NCBI GenBank assembly: GCA_015066525.1
Contig: SVOG01000011.1
Span: 1-39,013, forward strand
DNA from: Oscillospiraceae bacterium
Lineage (GTDB): Bacteria > Bacillota > Clostridia > Oscillospirales > Acutalibacteraceae
Direction of reading: 5' to 3'
DNA length: 39,013 nucleotides
In this document: positions 12,278-19,247 of the stretch, piece by piece
Layout of the letters: each line of letters starts with the position of its first letter
Numbering within the stretch: position 1 is the first letter of the stretch
The notes under the pieces: model-generated
What the model was told of the DNA's origin: nothing
The model's database searches: none
The model's input: only the letters and a program-made list of their open reading frames with translations
Position numbers and translations under genes: made by a program

Positions 12278-13543
12278 TTAATTACTATACAACTGCCATT
12301 TATCATATGCAGACAAATCTGCATTGTAAAATGTGATTTTATTATTTGCCACTTTATAATATACATACATTGTTTTACTTCCCGTAACAAGCGCATTAAA
12401 TGAATTCCTTGCACCGTATTTAAGTGATACGCTTACATAGTATATGTTGCCCTTATTTTTGTAAGCGTATGTACGAATACCGTAATCATACCTTGTATAT
12501 GAACTCGGGTCTTTTAGATATTGCTTTAATGCATCTTCTGCGTAATCCAAAACTTTATCACAAACGGCATATGGCAAATATGAGCAAATCTCATTTTCAT
12601 TGAGAAGTTCCATATTATCTTCAATTTTGCTTTTTATGCTGTATGCATTATAATCCGCCAGATATTTGCAGTTTTCTTTAAGGTATTTAATAACAGCATT
12701 ATGTTTTGCCTGTTTTGAATTCTTTTTTGCGGCTTTTGCAACATCAAGCTTTGTTATCATTTTTTGATACTTTTCGTCAAGGTTGTCGTATTCGTCTAAC
12801 AACTCTTTTGCGGTATCATAATTGTCCGCGCTTTTTTCTTTTGAACACTTTTCTGCAGTTTCGTCAAAGTATTTTACATATAGAAGATAGTATTCGTCAT
12901 ACTTTGTTTCAAGCAAATCATAATTATCAACATACTTTATATTTTCTTTATCCAAAGATTTATACATTCTGTTAATATCATCAAGCGTGTCTTTTGATTC
13001 AAGTGTGATTTCGCCTAATTCGTTAATGTTCTTTTCTACGATATATGCCTGATTGCTTGTTTCCCATCTAATTGTTGTTGTGCCGTTTGTATTTGTAAGT
13101 TCAACATAATCCAAATTTTTCGGGTCGTCCGAATCAAACGAATAAAACTTCCACTTATATCCGGCATCGTCGTCAAGCTCGCTTGGTGTTTCATCGTAAT
13201 ATTCACTTAGCTTATCCTTTAATATGTCAAAAGACTCTTTTTCTTTGCAAGACCAGGTGAGATTTGTTATGTATTTTTCATCGGTATCGGAGTTGAACTC
13301 CACCTTGCCGATATAGCCCCATAGTTTAACGCGTCTGAGATTTGACAATTCTTTTTCGTTTTTCAAAACGGATTTATACTCTTTGCAATCAACGGATACA
13401 ATTGCACTTGCCTGCTTGATAAACTCGCCGTCTGTAGATTTGTTAGGTATAATCAGGCTTAATAAAAATACAAGTCCGCATATACCCACTATTGCAGCGG
13501 TCACTGCAATAATAATGACATCCTTTGTTTTTAGCGTTTTCAT
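12278..13543 (-). CDS. Unrecognised membrane-anchored protein, Lys/Asp/Tyr-rich
   Basis: This 421-aa protein has a short basic start (MKTLKTKD), one hydrophobic helix (residues 9-32, IIIAVTAAIVGICGLVFLLS) and a long hydrophilic remainder rich in Lys, Asp, Glu, Tyr and Asn. Residues about 185-290 look coiled-coil-like and helical. The C-terminal 90 residues contain beta-type stretches such as GNIYYVSVSLKYGARNSFNA. I recognise no domain. The gene is visibly more AT-rich than its neighbours, hinting at recent acquisition or a different history. GAGGAG at 13552-13557 fixes the start. The 180-nt leader is unusual: a long hairpin from the predicted transcription start, then a terminator-like hairpin only 5 nt before the ribosome binding site, suggesting attenuation control. 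Confidence 0.72.
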   Translation of the reverse strand: MKTLKTKDVIIIAVTAAIVGICGLVFLLSLIIPNKSTDGEFIKQASAIVSVDCKEYKSVLKNEKELSNLRRVKLWGYIGKVEFNSDTDEKYITNLTWSCKEKESFDILKDKLSEYYDETPSELDDDAGYKWKFYSFDSDDPKNLDYVELTNTNGTTTIRWETSNQAYIVEKNINELGEITLESKDTLDDINRMYKSLDKENIKYVDNYDLLETKYDEYYLLYVKYFDETAEKCSKEKSADNYDTAKELLDEYDNLDEKYQKMITKLDVAKAAKKNSKQAKHNAVIKYLKENCKYLADYNAYSIKSKIEDNMELLNENEICSYLPYAVCDKVLDYAEDALKQYLKDPSSYTRYDYGIRTYAYKNKGNIYYVSVSLKYGARNSFNALVTGSKTMYVYYKVANNKITFYNADLSAYDKWQLYSN

Positions 13544-13561
13544 TAACTTCTCTCCTCAAAT

Positions 13562-13587
13562 AAAAAAATGCGTAGCAGAGCTACGCA
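13562..13587 (-). terminator. Leader terminator (attenuator candidate)
   Basis: On the minus strand TGCGTAGC-TCT-GCTACGCA (13587-13569) is followed by seven T (13568-13562). It lies in the leader of the 12278-13543 gene, just before its ribosome binding site. An upstream GAGCTGCG (13602-13595) can pair with CGTAGCTC (13585-13578), which would break the terminator stem. Confidence 0.7.
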
Positions 13588-13609
13588 CAAAAAACGCAGC
13601 TCAACTGTC

Positions 13610-13722
13610 GCCAAACAAAATCCAACATTTCAAAAAAAGGAAACGCTGAAAAAGCCGCATTTTTATCAGAAGATAAAAATAGCTTTCCCTTTTTTGAAAC
13701 ATAATATTAGATTTTGCTTGGC
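13610..13722 (-). other. Long hairpin at the 5' end of a leader (structured RNA or MITE-like palindrome)
   Basis: Minus-strand pairing: GCCAAGCAAAATC (13722-13710) with GATTTTGTTTGGC (13622-13610), 13 bp with one wobble. Then TTTCAAAAAAGG pairs with CCTTTTTTTGAAA (12 bp, one extra T). At the tip is ATTTTTATC-TTCT-GATAAAAAT (13680-13659). The base of the stem coincides with the predicted transcription start. No known riboswitch consensus was recognised. Confidence 0.6.
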
Positions 13723-13728
13723 AATTTC

Positions 13729-13757
13729 ATTTTAGCATTAATATAAATACAAGTCAA
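13729..13757 (-). promoter_or_regulatory. Promoter of the 12278-13543 gene
   Basis: Minus strand TTGACT (13757-13752), 17-bp spacer and TAAAAT (13734-13729). The start is expected at 13722, giving a leader of about 179 nt. Confidence 0.72.
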
Positions 13758-13767
13758 GAAATAATGA

Positions 13768-13895
13768 AAAAGGCTTCCCCTTGAGGGGAAGCTGTTGAGC
13801 GAAGCGAAACTGATGAGGTGGAAAAGTAAAATGGATTTTACACCTCATCAGTCTTGCCTGCGGCAATCCACCTTCCCCTCAAGGGGAAGGCTTAT
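13768..13895. repeat. Long inverted-repeat element downstream of uxuB
   Basis: The ends AAGGCTTCCCCTTGAGGGGA (13770-13789) and its near-complement (13873-13893) are themselves palindromic (TTCCCCTTGAGGGGAA). An inner pair CTGATGAGGTG/CACCTCATCAG (13810-13852) gives a second stem. I recall this as a widespread Clostridia intergenic element. It lies 9 nt after the uxuB stop. With the leader elements it accounts for the gene-free stretch 13544-13903. Confidence 0.7.
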
Positions 13896-13903
13896 TATTT
13901 TTA

Positions 13904-14752
13904 TTATACTCCGCTGTAGGCGTTAAATCCGCCGTCGACGGGGATGTTGACGCCCGTGATGAAGCCGCTGTACGCCTCGTCACAGAGGAAGAGGAGCGTA
14001 CCGTCGAGTTCTTCGGGTTTGCCGAAACGGTCCATCGGTGTTGCGGCAAGAATTTTGCCCGTTCTCTCGGTCGGCGAGCCGTCCTCGTTCCAGAGGAGCG
14101 CAGCGTTCTGCTTTGTGGAGAAGAATCCCGGCGCAATCGCGTTGACGCGGATGCCCATCGGTGCGAAATGTACTGCCATCCACTCGGTGAAGTTCTTGAC
14201 CGCCGCCTTCGCTGCCGAGTACGCAGGGATGCGGGTGAGCGGACGAAAGGCGTTCATCGAGGTCACCATTACGATACAGGTGTTCTCCTTTTCGACCATA
14301 TCGCGCGCAAATACCTGGGTGGGAATCAGTGTGCCGAGGAAGTTGAGATTGAATACAAAGCTGATACCGTTGGGGTCAAGGTCAAAGAAGGTCTTGACAT
14401 TCTCGTCCTTTTGTACGAGGTCAATCTTTTCGAGTGTGTCCTTCGTGGTCGTGCCCTTCGGGTTATTGCCGCCGGCGCCGTTGAGCAGAATGTCGCAGGT
14501 GCCGAGTTTCTCGTTAATAATCTCGCGTGCCTGCTGCATCGACTCGAGCTCGAGCACATTACAGCCTACGGCAATCGCCGTGCCGCCGTCTGCGTTAATT
14601 TCATCCGCACATTTCTGCGCCGCCTCTTCGTTGAGGTCAAGAACGGCTACCTTGCAACCCTGCTGTGCAAGCGTTTTCGCAAATGCACCGCAGAGCACGC
14701 CGCCGCCGCCCGTTACCACGGCAACTCTGCCTTTTAAGTTTTCGTGAGTCAT
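13904..14752 (-). CDS. uxuB: D-mannonate oxidoreductase / fructuronate reductase, SDR type
   Basis: This 282-aa short-chain dehydrogenase has the Rossmann motif TGGGGVLCG (14-22), NGAGGNNP (91-98), catalytic Ser165 (VTSMNAF), Tyr178 and Lys182 (YSAAK), and the C-terminal VDGGFNAYSGV. Of SDR sugar-acid enzymes it best fits the YjmF/UxuB type of Firmicutes, which reduces D-fructuronate to D-mannonate with NAD(P)H. This is not the unrelated long-chain UxuB of E. coli. Context supports it: it is last in the uxaC-kdgK-kdgA operon and its product is the substrate of UxuA at 10700-11764. A 2-deoxy-D-gluconate dehydrogenase (KduD-like) role is the main alternative. AAGGAG is 8 nt before the ATG, and the kdgA stop is 11 nt upstream. 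Confidence 0.78.
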   Translation of the reverse strand: MTHENLKGRVAVVTGGGGVLCGAFAKTLAQQGCKVAVLDLNEEAAQKCADEINADGGTAIAVGCNVLELESMQQAREIINEKLGTCDILLNGAGGNNPKGTTTKDTLEKIDLVQKDENVKTFFDLDPNGISFVFNLNFLGTLIPTQVFARDMVEKENTCIVMVTSMNAFRPLTRIPAYSAAKAAVKNFTEWMAVHFAPMGIRVNAIAPGFFSTKQNAALLWNEDGSPTERTGKILAATPMDRFGKPEELDGTLLFLCDEAYSGFITGVNIPVDGGFNAYSGV

Positions 14753-14763
14753 AGTATATCTCC

Positions 14764-15423
14764 TTATTTAGCAGCCATTTCTGCGCGTGCTTCTTTGATT
14801 CTCTGAACAAAAATCTTACCTGTTTCGGTAATCTTTTCGTATTCGCCGGTTTTGGCGCCTGCGGTGAGGGAGGAGCCTGCGCCGACTGCGATGGCGCCCG
14901 CCTTGATCCAGTCCTTAACGTTATCCACGTCAACACCGCCCGACGGCATCATCACTGCGTGCGGAATCGGACCGTGGATATCCTTGATGAAGCGGGGACC
15001 TGCGAGGTCGCCGGGGAATACCTTGAGTACGTCGGCGCCGCATTCCATCGCCTGTACAGCCTCGGTGGGTGTGTAAATACCGGGCATCGACGGAATACCG
15101 TAGCGGTTGCAGCAGCGCACGGTCTCGGGGTCAAAGTAGGGGGCAACCACATACTCAGCGCCCGCGAGAATCGCAATTCTTGCGGTTGCAGCATCCATAA
15201 CGGTGCCTGCGCCGATGATGATTTCGCCGCTGTTATACTTCGCTCTCATCGCCTCGATGAGTTTGTCCGCGTGCGGAACGGTAAAGGTCAGCTCGATGGC
15301 TGCTACGCCGCCTGCGATACAAGCGTCGGTGATTTTCTCAGCCTGCTCAATGGAAGTGGCGCGAACGACTGCCACGATGCCGACTTCCTGAATTTTGGAT
15401 AAAGTTTCGATTTTGTTAGACAT
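14764..15423 (-). CDS. kdgA: 2-keto-3-deoxy-6-phosphogluconate aldolase
   Basis: This 219-aa protein has the KDPG/KHG aldolase pattern: GIVAVVRA (15-22, with Arg21), AIELTFTVP (42-50, Glu44 as general base), GAGTV (71-75), and the Schiff-base lysine Lys134 in VLKVFPGDLAGP. SGGV and GAGSSL complete the phosphate-binding loops. It cleaves KDPG to pyruvate and glyceraldehyde 3-phosphate, the last step of the hexuronate route. It follows kdgK in function but is separated from it by a secreted protein gene. The start has AAGGAG 8 nt upstream. Confidence 0.94.
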   Translation of the reverse strand: MSNKIETLSKIQEVGIVAVVRATSIEQAEKITDACIAGGVAAIELTFTVPHADKLIEAMRAKYNSGEIIIGAGTVMDAATARIAILAGAEYVVAPYFDPETVRCCNRYGIPSMPGIYTPTEAVQAMECGADVLKVFPGDLAGPRFIKDIHGPIPHAVMMPSGGVDVDNVKDWIKAGAIAVGAGSSLTAGAKTGEYEKITETGKIFVQRIKEARAEMAAK

Positions 15424-15451
15424 TTTAACTTCTCCTTATATGGTTATTGCT

Positions 15452-16657
15452 TTATTGTTTTGTAGTTACCGTTTTGGATTTGCTCCAGGATGAATAATAC
15501 CTTGTCTTATCGACTGTTTTGTATGTGCGGATACGCACGTAGTATTTCTTCTTTCCTTTGAGCTTGCCAATTCTTTTCGTAATTGTTTTATTACTTTTTA
15601 TTGTTACGGTTTTTGTTTTGCTTTTGAAATGCTTATCCGTGCTGAATTGGATTTGATATCCCGTTGTCTTTGTAGCCTGTTTTTTCCATTTCACGGTAAA
15701 GCTCTTGGACTGCGGGATTATTTTTGTGAGTTTTGTGGGCTCAGGTACGACGGTAAAATATAATACTTTAGCGCCTGAATACCTGCCCTTAAAATTGACT
15801 CTTACCGTATATTTCCCGATTTCCTTTCGGTTTTTCTGATAGTTTACCGTATAGCCGGATGCAGGAAGGTTATTTCCGTTTCTATCCTTAATTGTGACGG
15901 TGGGCTTGTGCGCCTTGCCGTTATAGGTGTATTTTGTACGGCTGAGCGATACTTGCGTGACGGCAGGAATCTTTTCAAAGGAATATAACCCGCAGTCAAT
16001 ACAGTAATGCACAGCAATTCCGTCGCAGTATTCAATGCTGTCAACACCGCTTTTAGCGAGAGTGGCAGGCGTAATATACTTCCTGAAGTTATGACTGTGA
16101 CCCGGAAGCGAGCAAAAGCCGATATTCCACAAACAGCAATTTACGCTAATATTGTAATATAAACAATTATCAAAGCCTTCGAGCGAAGCCTTAAACTCAT
16201 CGTTGCAGCGTGTGTTGAATACATCGGTGCCGTCATCTTTTTCATACGAAAAATTCAGGTCTTCGCCGGCGTACGTATACAATTTCGGCAGAAAGACAGA
16301 CGCGGATATTTCGTCACTGTCAGTCACAAGATTTGCCGATATGATAATATCGGGAAAACTGTAGTGAAAGGATATTCTGTCTCCGCTTGAAACGAACTGC
16401 GCATCAAAGCGAAGATGATTGGTTGCCTTTTCGACGGTGATTTTGTATTCATTTTGAGTCAGTTCGTCCCGATAGCAGATATATTTGTTATCCGCGGTGT
16501 CGGTTTTGCCTGTTTTCATTATTTCTCTGACTACATCGTTGATTTTTTCGCTGACAAAGTTTTCATCTGCGCTATACTGAATATTTGCGTTTGCACTGAT
16601 GGGAGATGCCGCAATCAGCATGATGAACGCCATCAGAAAGGCGAATATTTTTTTCAT
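15452..16657 (-). CDS. Secreted surface protein with Ig-like and FN3 modules
   Basis: This 401-aa protein starts with a clear signal peptide (MKKIFAFLMAFIMLIAASP, cleavage near ANA). Residues 25-210 are a domain I do not recognise. Then comes a module set I know from Ruminococcaceae and Lachnospiraceae wall proteins: a zinc-ribbon-like HNF..TPATLAKSG...CIDCG stretch, an Ig-like repeat (VSLSRTKYTYNGKAHKPTVT through YSGAKVLYFTV), and a C-terminal FN3-like domain (FTVKWKKQATKTTGYQIQFS to YYSSWSKSKTVTTK). No LPXTG or SLH anchor is present. The start is ATG 16657 after GGTGAAG, not the upstream in-frame ATG at 16702. It lies between kdgK (76 nt) and kdgA (28 nt) in the hexuronate operon and is more AT-rich than both, so it may have been inserted there. 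Confidence 0.82.
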   Translation of the reverse strand: MKKIFAFLMAFIMLIAASPISANANIQYSADENFVSEKINDVVREIMKTGKTDTADNKYICYRDELTQNEYKITVEKATNHLRFDAQFVSSGDRISFHYSFPDIIISANLVTDSDEISASVFLPKLYTYAGEDLNFSYEKDDGTDVFNTRCNDEFKASLEGFDNCLYYNISVNCCLWNIGFCSLPGHSHNFRKYITPATLAKSGVDSIEYCDGIAVHYCIDCGLYSFEKIPAVTQVSLSRTKYTYNGKAHKPTVTIKDRNGNNLPASGYTVNYQKNRKEIGKYTVRVNFKGRYSGAKVLYFTVVPEPTKLTKIIPQSKSFTVKWKKQATKTTGYQIQFSTDKHFKSKTKTVTIKSNKTITKRIGKLKGKKKYYVRIRTYKTVDKTRYYSSWSKSKTVTTKQ

Positions 16658-16733
16658 ATTCTTCACCGCCGATTTTTGGATAATAAACAGATGCATCATC
16701 AAAAGGAATTTTATCTATGCTCAACAAGAGCAA

Positions 16734-17831
16734 TCAGCGTTGTACACGAGCGCCTGCGCCGTTTACTTTGGCTTCCACTTCCTTGAGTGACGCCATCGAG
16801 GTGTCGCCGGGGGTAGTCATCGCGAGTGCGCCGTGAACGACGCCGTAGTTGACTGCCTTCTGTGCGTCCTCGTAGGTCATCAGACCGTAGATAAGTCCGC
16901 TTGCGAAACTGTCGCCGCCGCCGACTCTGTCGAGGATTTCAAGACCGGGGAACTCGAGCGAGTTGAAAATCTTGCCGTCAGCCCAGCAGATTGCCTTCCA
17001 GTCGTTGACAGTCGCCGTCTTAACGGTACGCAGGGTGGTTGCGATGACCTTGAAGTTCGGATACGCCTTCGTCACGGTCTCAATCATCTTGTAGTAGCCG
17101 TCCATATTGAGCTCTTTGAGGTCGGCGTCGTTACCCTCTACCTCAAAGCCGAGGGAAGCCGTGAAGTCCTCCTCGTTGCCAATCATTACATCGACATACT
17201 TCGCGATTTCACGATTAACCTCCTGTGCCTTAGCCTGACCGCCGATGTCCTTCCAGAGTGACGGACGGTAGTTGAGGTCGTAGGAGACGATGGTGCCGTA
17301 TTCCTTCGCCTTCTTTACTGCGGCGATGGTTGTCTCGGCAGCGGTTTCAGAGAGCGCTGCGTAAATGCCGCCTGTGTGCAGCCAGCGAACGCCGAGCGTA
17401 CCGAAGATGTAATCCCAGTCGATGTCCTCGGGTCTGAGCTGCGAAGCAGCGGTATTGCCCCTGTCCGAAGCGCCGACAGCGCCGCGGATGCCGAAGCCGC
17501 GCTCGGTGAAATTCAGTCCGTTTCTGACCGTTCTGCCGATACCGTCGTAGGGCACCCACTTAATAAGGCTCGTATCAACGCCGCCCTGCAGGATTAAATC
17601 CTCCATCAGATAGCCGATTTCATTCTCGGCAAAGGCAGTAACGACCGAGGTTTTGAGTCCGAAGCATCTTCTCAGTCCGCGGGCAACATTGTACTCGCCG
17701 CCGCCTTCCCATGCTCGGAAGGAGCGGGCGGTCTTAATTCTGCCTTCGCCCGGGTCCAGACGGAGCATAATCTCGCCGAGAGAAATCTCGTCAAAGGTGC
17801 ATTCTTCTTTAGGTCTTAAGTTCAAATTCAT
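16734..17831 (-). CDS. kdgK: 2-keto-3-deoxygluconate kinase (PfkB family)
   Basis: This 365-aa sugar kinase has the PfkB signatures: GEIMLRLDPGEG near the N-terminus, WEGGGEYNVARGL near residue 41 for sugar binding, and DRVGGGDSFASGLIYG near the C-terminus with catalytic Asp307. It phosphorylates 2-keto-3-deoxygluconate to KDPG. The substrate is inferred mainly from the operon: UxaC is 18 nt upstream and KDPG aldolase and the fructuronate reductase follow. It is somewhat longer than typical KdgK (about 310-340 aa). The start at 17831 has a GGAGG-type site 8 nt upstream. Confidence 0.9.
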   Translation of the reverse strand: MNLNLRPKEECTFDEISLGEIMLRLDPGEGRIKTARSFRAWEGGGEYNVARGLRRCFGLKTSVVTAFAENEIGYLMEDLILQGGVDTSLIKWVPYDGIGRTVRNGLNFTERGFGIRGAVGASDRGNTAASQLRPEDIDWDYIFGTLGVRWLHTGGIYAALSETAAETTIAAVKKAKEYGTIVSYDLNYRPSLWKDIGGQAKAQEVNREIAKYVDVMIGNEEDFTASLGFEVEGNDADLKELNMDGYYKMIETVTKAYPNFKVIATTLRTVKTATVNDWKAICWADGKIFNSLEFPGLEILDRVGGGDSFASGLIYGLMTYEDAQKAVNYGVVHGALAMTTPGDTSMASLKEVEAKVNGAGARVQR

Positions 17832-17849
17832 TTGTGCGTCCTCCGTATA

Positions 17850-19247
17850 TTAAAACTTGAAGTATTCTACTGCGTTATTGTAGCAAATGCCTTCGACAAT
17901 CTGCCTTAGCATCTCGTCGTCGTTGGCGTACCAGCCATCCTCAACCCAGCGTCCGAGCAGACGGCACATAATGCGTCTGAAATACTCGTGTCTGCCATAG
18001 GAGGTAAAGGAGCGGCTGTCCGTCTCCATACCGACGAATTTGCCGAGCACGCCGAGATTGCCGAGCGATTTCATCTGGGCAGTCATACCGTCCATTGTGT
18101 CGAGGAACCACCATGCGGGACCGAACTGAATCTTACCCGCGGTTTCACTGCTCTGGAAATTGCCGAGCATCGTGGCAAGCACGGTGTTGTCCTTGTCGTT
18201 GAGGTTGAAGAGTATCGTTTTCGGCAGGTTGCCGTTTGCTTCGAGCGCGTTGAGGAACGCTGAGAGCGGCTGCGCAATTTCGCAGTCGCCGACGCTGTCG
18301 AATCCCGTATCCGCGCCGAGTGCCAGGAATTTTTTAGTATTATTATTACGCATCGCGCCGATGTGCACTTCCATTGCCCAGCCGAGTTCGCTGTACTTCT
18401 TGCCGAGCGCAAGCATCACGGCGGTGCGGTATTTGTCGGTATCCTTCTGTTGCGGCTCTTCGCCCTTCATCGCCTTTTTGAAGATTTTATCAACTTCATC
18501 CTCATCTGCGTAAACATAGGGCACATAGTCGAATGCCTGGTCACTCACTTTGCAGCCAACCTCATTGAAGTAGTCGGCACGCTTTAAGAGGGCGGTGATA
18601 ACATCGTCGAAGTGCTTGATTTTGATTCCCGCACTTTCGCCGAGCGCCTCGATATAATCGGCAAAACCGTCGAGATTAATATTCAGCGCCTTGTCGGGGC
18701 GGAAGGAGGGGAGCACCCGAAACGGTAAATCCTGAGCGGCGAGGAGTTTGTGATACCTCAGGTCGTCAATCGGGTCGTCGGTCGTGCAGACGAATTTCAC
18801 ATTTGATTGTGCAATCAGCGTTTGCGGTCTGAAGTCGCCGTCTCTAATGACTTCGTTTGCCTTTTCATAGATTTCCTCGGCAGTCTTGGCGTTCAGTGGC
18901 GTGTCAATGCCAAAGTATCGCTGCAACTCGATATGCGCCCAGTGATAGAGCGGATTGCCGATGCACCAGCCGAGCGTCTCGCCGAATTTGAGGAATTTTT
19001 CCTTCGGCGTTGCGTCGCCCGTGCAGTATTTCTCGTCAATCCCGTAGGAACGCATCGCGCGCCACTTGTAGTGGTCGCCCGAGAGCCAGAGCTGCGAGAT
19101 GTCGGACGGTTGCTCGTTTTCGTAAATTTCCTTGGGGCTGAGGTGACAGTGGTAATCGCAAATCGGCATCTTCTCCGCAAAGTCGTGAAAAAGATGCTGC
19201 GCGCACTTTGTGTCAAGCAGAAAGTCCCTGTCCATAAACTGATTCAT
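17850..19247 (-). CDS. uxaC: Glucuronate isomerase (uronate isomerase)
   Basis: This 465-aa protein is a full-length UxaC of the amidohydrolase superfamily. The metal-binding motif DYHCHLSPKEI is at residues 31-41 (His33, His35). Further family pieces are WRAMRSYGI, CTTDDPIDDLRYH, LPSFRPDKALNI, WAMEVHIGAMRNNN and GMETDSRSFTSYGRHEYFRRI. It converts D-glucuronate to D-fructuronate (and D-galacturonate to D-tagaturonate). No tagaturonate reductase or altronate dehydratase is in the window, so glucuronate is the likely substrate. It is the first gene of the operon, with promoter at 19280-19308 and GGGAG before the ATG. Confidence 0.97.
   Translation of the reverse strand: MNQFMDRDFLLDTKCAQHLFHDFAEKMPICDYHCHLSPKEIYENEQPSDISQLWLSGDHYKWRAMRSYGIDEKYCTGDATPKEKFLKFGETLGWCIGNPLYHWAHIELQRYFGIDTPLNAKTAEEIYEKANEVIRDGDFRPQTLIAQSNVKFVCTTDDPIDDLRYHKLLAAQDLPFRVLPSFRPDKALNINLDGFADYIEALGESAGIKIKHFDDVITALLKRADYFNEVGCKVSDQAFDYVPYVYADEDEVDKIFKKAMKGEEPQQKDTDKYRTAVMLALGKKYSELGWAMEVHIGAMRNNNTKKFLALGADTGFDSVGDCEIAQPLSAFLNALEANGNLPKTILFNLNDKDNTVLATMLGNFQSSETAGKIQFGPAWWFLDTMDGMTAQMKSLGNLGVLGKFVGMETDSRSFTSYGRHEYFRRIMCRLLGRWVEDGWYANDDEMLRQIVEGICYNNAVEYFKF

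Follow-up and report, generated by a model that had tools for sequence, protein, structure and literature searches.

A long hairpin separates the promoter of a 421-aa orphan gene from its ribosome binding site in the window (the whole 39,013-nt stretch of DNA analysed here), and the question raised by this locus is whether the hairpin belongs to a leader that controls the gene or is a palindromic element lodged between promoter and gene. An earlier note, made from the sequence, had proposed an attenuator with mutually exclusive terminator and antiterminator stems. Its proposal gains support from the related copies compared here, and we consider it likely, on sequence comparison, that the leader attenuates transcription in cis and belongs to a class absent from Rfam 15, in which one segment (B) switches between an upstream partner (A) and the 5' arm of the terminator (T). 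Comparison of the copies shows a conserved module and copy-by-copy covariation of both A:B and B:T; the A:B pairing and the related copies elsewhere go beyond what the earlier note had observed.

The Leader of the Window Locus

The features of the locus are given in Table 1. The positions first read for the promoter, the 113-nt hairpin, GAGCTGCG, the terminator, the T-run and the ribosome binding site proved correct base for base. A TG precedes the −10 hexamer (TGcTAAAAT), making it an extended −10, and transcription would start near 13722, as judged solely from promoter spacing. The RNA from 13540 to 13730 folds at −70.2 kcal/mol, compared with −40.1 kcal/mol (sd 3.7) for 200 dinucleotide shuffles, none of which was as stable (z = −8.2; 0/200). 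In the minimum free energy structure of the leader, the predicted antiterminator between B and the terminator 5' arm is present and the terminator is absent. The same copy can form an A:B helix of 13 bp, with a duplex energy of −15.7 kcal/mol.

Table 1. Features of the leader locus in the window.
Feature	Position	Strand	Description
Promoter	13757-13729	-	sigma-70-type; TTGACT (13757-13752), 17-nt spacer, TAAAAT (13734-13729); sequence reading and consensus scan
Rod hairpin	13722-13610 (113 nt)	-	P1 arms GCCAAGC/GTTTGGC at the base, variable P2, apical hairpin
Apical hairpin	13680-13659	-	AUUUUUAUC-loop-GAUAAAAAU; fold and family comparison
Segment A	13664-13652	-	AAAAATGCGGCTT; 3' side of apical hairpin; coordinates from sequence
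Segment B	13602-13590	-	GAGCTGCGTTTTT; common partner of A and of terminator 5' arm
GAGCTGCG	13602-13595	-	between rod and terminator
Segment T	13585-13578	-	partner of B in the antiterminator; overlaps terminator 5' arm
Intrinsic terminator	13587-13569	-	TGCGTAGC-TCT-GCTACGCA; sequence and consensus scan
Seven T of terminator	13568-13562	-	whole terminator with T-run, 13587-13562
Ribosome binding site	13557-13552	-	GAGGAG; sequence reading
421-aa orphan ORF	12278..13543	-	ATG at 13543; gene behind the window copy

The encoded 421-aa protein has a membrane- or secretion-like N-terminus. It belongs to no Pfam family and to no NCBIfam family over the cut-off. Among the other 79 genus genomes, one gave a match to it, with 32% identity across about 193 aa.

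No Rfam 15 family reached its gathering threshold on the whole window. Permissive scans gave only weak matches to unrelated families, both for the window leader and, besides a neighbouring tRNA, for six other loci. A known Rfam family was therefore rejected as the identity of the leader, nothing useful having appeared at either threshold. None of the titles and abstracts found in the literature describes the leader family; PMC8040213 has 3161 candidates in its supplementary tables. We rate the family as an attenuator by its logic and as a new family by its sequence and structure.

Distribution of the Leader Family

A nucleotide search found the leader at five places in the window's own genome and matched 20 of 40 genomes, a count that includes this one. 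A covariance model was built from 45 of the 57 extracted copies, the other 12 being omitted because they ran into contig ends, contained Ns, or had an unclear 5' end or a doubtful core. At E ≤ 0.001, and with the own genome in every tally, the model matched 65 of 80 genomes of the genus, 103 of 295 genomes in the order sample (62 of 148 genera), 85 of 341 in the class sample (54 of 203 genera) and, among the 348 of the phylum sample, the own genome only; absences in these tallies are soft because searches of more than 40 genomes apply strict filters. The palindromic leader also yields weak reverse-strand hits, so that match counts per genome can include some of these: the window's genome has six model matches, one of them on the reverse strand, leaving five copies, and genome G086 has 34, of which 25 are among the matches listed.

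At least 119 stretches with the leader pattern were found by a pattern scan of named genomes, and 80 of these were rescored and kept out of the pairing tests. Among the 80 titles listed, one is labelled Bacteroides sp. and the others Clostridia, Clostridiales, Oscillospiraceae, Ruminococcaceae or similar genera, many of them from ruminant, deer or rabbit gut. The contig titled Bacteroides sp. carries the leader (L150), and its public label looks wrong. Viral contigs, phages and plasmids gave no match to two exact patterns and one nucleotide query, which distant relatives could escape.

Anatomy of the Module

The comparisons below use 157 distinct copies, which remained when duplicates had been removed from 31 model hits at genus level, 93 at order level and the 45 copies of the first alignment. 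The order-level matches used were 28 new loci among those listed and 60 regions, mostly the stronger matches, and in the genus set (n = 63) a single copy, L027, comes from a different family of the order. The module typically runs from an extended −10 promoter through a rod of about 105–130 nt, segment B and an intrinsic terminator to the ribosome binding site and the gene. Copies are alike mainly in short patches, and the rod varies in sequence from copy to copy while keeping its shape. The distance between a −35 resembling TTGACA, an extended −10 (TRTGnTAnAAT) and the base of the rod is fixed in the order-level (n = 92) and genus-set (n = 63) copies. The alternative raised with the original proposal, insertion of a palindromic element between promoter and gene, is at odds in that form with a promoter that is itself part of the conserved module and stands at a fixed distance.

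In the window's genus the rod base is typically TGCCAAA/TTTGGCG, and many of the order-level copies listed have TGCGACACA/TGTGTCGCA or a similar pair of arms there, both strands being changed. The rod tip reads UUUUUA..UAAAAA and is followed on the 3' side by the consensus UGCAUGCUCU, which together with the preceding As constitutes segment A; segment B has a consensus near GGAGCnAUGCGUUUUU and lies after the rod, ahead of terminator and gene. The motif AAUA occurs on the 5' side of the rod in 118 of 157 copies, compared with 51.7 expected from letter shuffling. A hinge that would fold back through AAUA was rejected; it found no support in the helix lengths, and P1 and P2 anticorrelate.

Alignment and folding of the 45 copies (MAFFT/RNAalifold) recovered only P1 and the terminator, the rod being too variable to align, and the terminator pairs change on both sides in this alignment. 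Since the rod could not be aligned, pairing was tested by duplex energies between anchored segments.

Competing Pairings of Segment B

Segments were anchored by motif, B in all 157 copies and A in 155 (two were dropped), and A:B mostly spans 11–16 bp. Segments A and B from the same copy pair more strongly than segments from different copies, with −15.45 against −12.65 kcal/mol in the order set (n = 92; z = −11.1, 0/5000) and −15.95 against −13.85 kcal/mol in the genus set (z = −8.7, 0/5000). The same holds for B:T, at −15.96 against −14.14 kcal/mol in the order set (z = −7.5) and −15.98 against −14.82 kcal/mol in the genus set (z = −4.4), whereas A:T, a control of the same relatedness, gave no gain (z = −0.2 and +4.0). 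The result persists when shuffles are restricted to families, genera or genomes, with A:T at +2.0 to +3.1; within single genomes (102 copies, 38 genomes) z is −5.2 for A:B, −4.4 for B:T (0/3000 each) and +2.0 for the control. Inside G086 alone the test is uninformative (A:B −2.9, A:T −2.3, B:T −0.4), and some copies pair poorly (L108, L260, L272 and L279).

The pair A+2/B−2, at the second position after the A-run, could be tallied in 151 of the 155 A-anchored copies, and is G-C in 109, A-U in 23, G-U in eight and unpaired in 11. Among 38 order-level genera, G-C was seen in 31, A-U in 11 and both in seven, and from this spread the exchange probably arose repeatedly. The compensatory changes sought in the alternative stems are present, A:B and B:T both being maintained copy by copy, and an antiterminator that excludes the terminator is kept by covariation, as an attenuator requires.

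With B free, the segment from B to the terminator is more stable, by over 1 kcal/mol, than the terminator by itself in 81 of 92 order-set and 62 of 63 genus-set copies, so capture of B by A is predicted, from these energies, to favour termination. Downstream pairing of B has a predicted probability above 0.5 in 56 of 63 genus-set copies but in only 48 of 92 order-set copies, so that the default state is not clear everywhere.

B as a shared partner suggests a logic like that of the trp operon, with A:B as the off state and B:T as the on state. RNA polymerase would start at the rod base and the rod would fold first. If B then paired with A, the T arm would be free, the terminator could form and the gene would be off; with A occupied or held away, B would pair with T, no terminator would form and the gene would be read. 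In this way the choice would be set for many genes together, by a signal that acts on the A loop or on the upper part of the rod.

In trp-type attenuators the pairing logic is 1:2, 2:3 and 3:4. The likeness is that a single segment, here B as segment 2, can pair either with a partner upstream or with the arm of the terminator. The leader family differs in having no conserved leader peptide and in that segment 1 sits in the internal loop of a long rod, and 1:2 would be a pseudoknot or would open the rod. Ribosome-mediated attenuation through a leader peptide, for which the trp-like order of segments could be cited, is extremely improbable: an ATG or GTG frame of at least seven codons preceded by a Shine-Dalgarno (SD) sequence occurs in only 31 of 157 leaders, and the rod varies freely in sequence and length. 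A leader-peptide attenuator was rejected on this count of translated frames.

Rod energies are −45 kcal/mol or lower in 29 of the 35 rods listed, compared with about −15.5 kcal/mol for A:B. Because the rod is so much more stable, A:B would have to form either between two RNAs or as a pseudoknot that leaves the rod at least partly intact. The full rod may be too long and stiff for A and B to meet, a point against the attenuator geometry. If instead the short, terminated leaders acted in trans, pairing A or B with other copies or RNAs, this would suit their own promoter and terminator, the tandem units that leave no room for a gene between them, and the 438 of 506 trans A:B pairs in G086 that still lie below −12 kcal/mol; but cis pairing beats trans pairing within the same genome and the leaders are placed before start codons, and we regard action in trans as quite improbable.

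Placement and Downstream Genes

An ORF on the same strand (50 aa or longer, or running off the end of the locus) begins within 120 nt of 133 of the 157 copies, at a median of 17 nt from the end of the model match, and 119 of these 133 ORFs have an SD-like match and 120 an ATG start. An opposite-direction control, starting 60 nt beyond the 5' end, gave any such ORF in 79 of 157 copies; when ATG, SD and at least 80 aa were required jointly, the counts were 101 of 157 forward and 10 of 157 in the control. No qualifying ORF was found within 120 nt of 24 copies. Promoter, intrinsic terminator and gene thus follow in order on one strand, as in an attenuator. The covariance search across Clostridia that had been suggested as a check returned homologues that are dispersed, yet lie before same-strand genes.

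The 133 downstream proteins fall into 93 clusters, 79 of them single, and 64 of the 133 have a signal- or membrane-like N-terminus by a crude pattern (not SignalP). Short or doubtful ORFs (L100, L123, L272, L279 and L296) were omitted, and the remaining 128 proteins were aligned and scanned. They matched 88 Pfam families, including BspA-type LRR (15), AMP-binding (6), zinc ribbon (6) and HTH (5). Some pairs of leader and gene family recur across bacterial families, as with a zinc-ribbon protein found in five genomes of the genus and one genome of another family. Pfam matches and clustering revealed no common downstream pathway. Scans with PADLOC (33 families in all) and PHROG (189) showed no uniting defence or phage theme among the 25 families listed for each; these are mostly HTH regulators and nameless families, and the listed PHROGs include a few endolysin, peptidase, tail and superinfection-exclusion-like families of two to three members each.

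Target genes so numerous and varied suggest a signal of a general kind more than a single metabolite pathway. Another reading is a riboswitch in the narrow sense, which would bind a metabolite through an aptamer made up of the upper rod and the A loop. The terminator platform would suit one, as would the letters conserved around A and in the apical part; much of the conserved sequence is, however, accounted for by A:B, P1 and the terminator, and the 128 scanned proteins with their 88 families share no common pathway. We therefore find a riboswitch of this kind rather unlikely.

As copies of the proposed attenuator precede many unrelated genes in gut bacteria, its trigger may control a large gene set. 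A broader reading, possible but doubtful, is a global RNA regulon of uncultured gut Clostridia, in which a three-way pseudoknot switch of A, B and terminator senses one signal, cellular or from the community, and spreads with its genes as promoter-switch-gene cassettes; equally tentatively, this regulon would extend over dozens of genera, with up to about 30 copies per genome, and would gate accessory, largely secreted genes. If true, rumen and gut Clostridia would have in the leader an RNA regulator that is both abundant and unannotated, and common control is suggested for many secreted or orphan proteins without known function. The covariation pinpoints which pairings to examine in one experiment.

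Multiplied Copies and Possible Cassette Spread

In G086 a small orphan gene has been multiplied along with the module, which makes cassette-like spread possible. Of the 34 model matches in this genome 23 were fetched, and 11 of these copies carry a closely related ORF of 91–95 aa; similarity of the units mostly starts near −45 and ends shortly after the stop codon. G086 has 14 matches to the protein, of which two are truncated at contig ends; the 79 remaining genus genomes have none. Leaders 54–100 nt apart in tandem in G007 and G091, with no room for an ordinary gene between them, and the dispersal of copies before unrelated genes (93 clusters) would likewise suit a mobile or recurrently copied promoter-leader-gene cassette, where the leader spreads with or to genes and regulation is secondary. 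Leader identity of up to 0.91 within G086 would suit it as well. Against this, the median leader identity there is 0.83, the Pfam families listed for directly downstream proteins (25 of 88) include no transposase, and the phage, plasmid and viral collections gave no match with the queries used. A mere repeat would also not need both switch pairings, which are kept copy by copy. That regulation is secondary appears unlikely to us, and cassette copying is a live rival or companion to plain regulation.

The 11 intact 91–95-aa proteins that were fetched (among L321–L340) were found via the leader and lie behind it; they belong to no Pfam family over the cut-off. In one G086 unit (L338), what appears by eye to be the same terminator palindrome flanks both sides in inverted orientation. 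Tandem leaders, each with its own promoter and terminator, were also seen at L016 and L058 (G007:C60 and G014:C40), where the gene behind them is PIN/NYN-like by resemblance; two PIN7 matches occur among the scanned proteins.

Relation to Known Systems

LoaP antitermination involves hairpin leaders and conditional termination in Firmicutes, and the leader family is alike in its hairpin and in its proposed conditional termination. Control by LoaP was rejected, as the LoaP model scored over its cut-off in one of 80 genus genomes and the leader occurs in 65 of the 80. Matches below the cut-off, in 70 of 80 genus and 13 of 14 control genomes, are as expected of ordinary NusG.

Type III toxin-antitoxin systems have the order ToxI-terminator-ToxN, and so also place a structured RNA and a terminator before a gene. 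They differ in that the proteins downstream of the leader family are mostly unrelated to each other, and no toxin repeat array was seen in the leader copies read. ToxI/ToxN is also named in PMC8040213.

The SLH motif, according to PMC6429828, is a riboswitch candidate before surface-protein and unknown genes, including those of Clostridia, a setting like that of the leader family; no family of Rfam, which may lack an SLH model, reached its threshold on the window or, a neighbouring tRNA apart, in six other copies. Naville and Gautheret (2010; PMC2965389) describe attenuator regulons and "mobile attenuators", the latter being insertion-sequence terminators of recent spread. Such 5' terminators of one sequence family, dispersed before unrelated genes, resemble the leaders; the mobile attenuators, as described there, differ from the present family, where promoter, rod and two stems are kept with compensatory changes across many genera, and the family fits their notion of a regulon.

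Neighbourhood of the Window Leader

A second, unrelated palindromic repeat, CTTCCCCTTGAGGGGAAGG ... GATGAGGTG, lies at 13767-13896, between the end of a dehydrogenase gene and the promoter. When at most one mismatch is allowed, the genome holds 13 matches to its end motif, of which two lie at 13767-13896 itself; the reversed-motif control gave none. Hexuronate-pathway-like genes occupy 13904-19247, with a dehydrogenase, a KDPG aldolase and a sugar kinase by Pfam, and one that we take to be a uronate isomerase. Among them, at 15452-16702, is the gene for a secreted-like protein with an fn3 domain.
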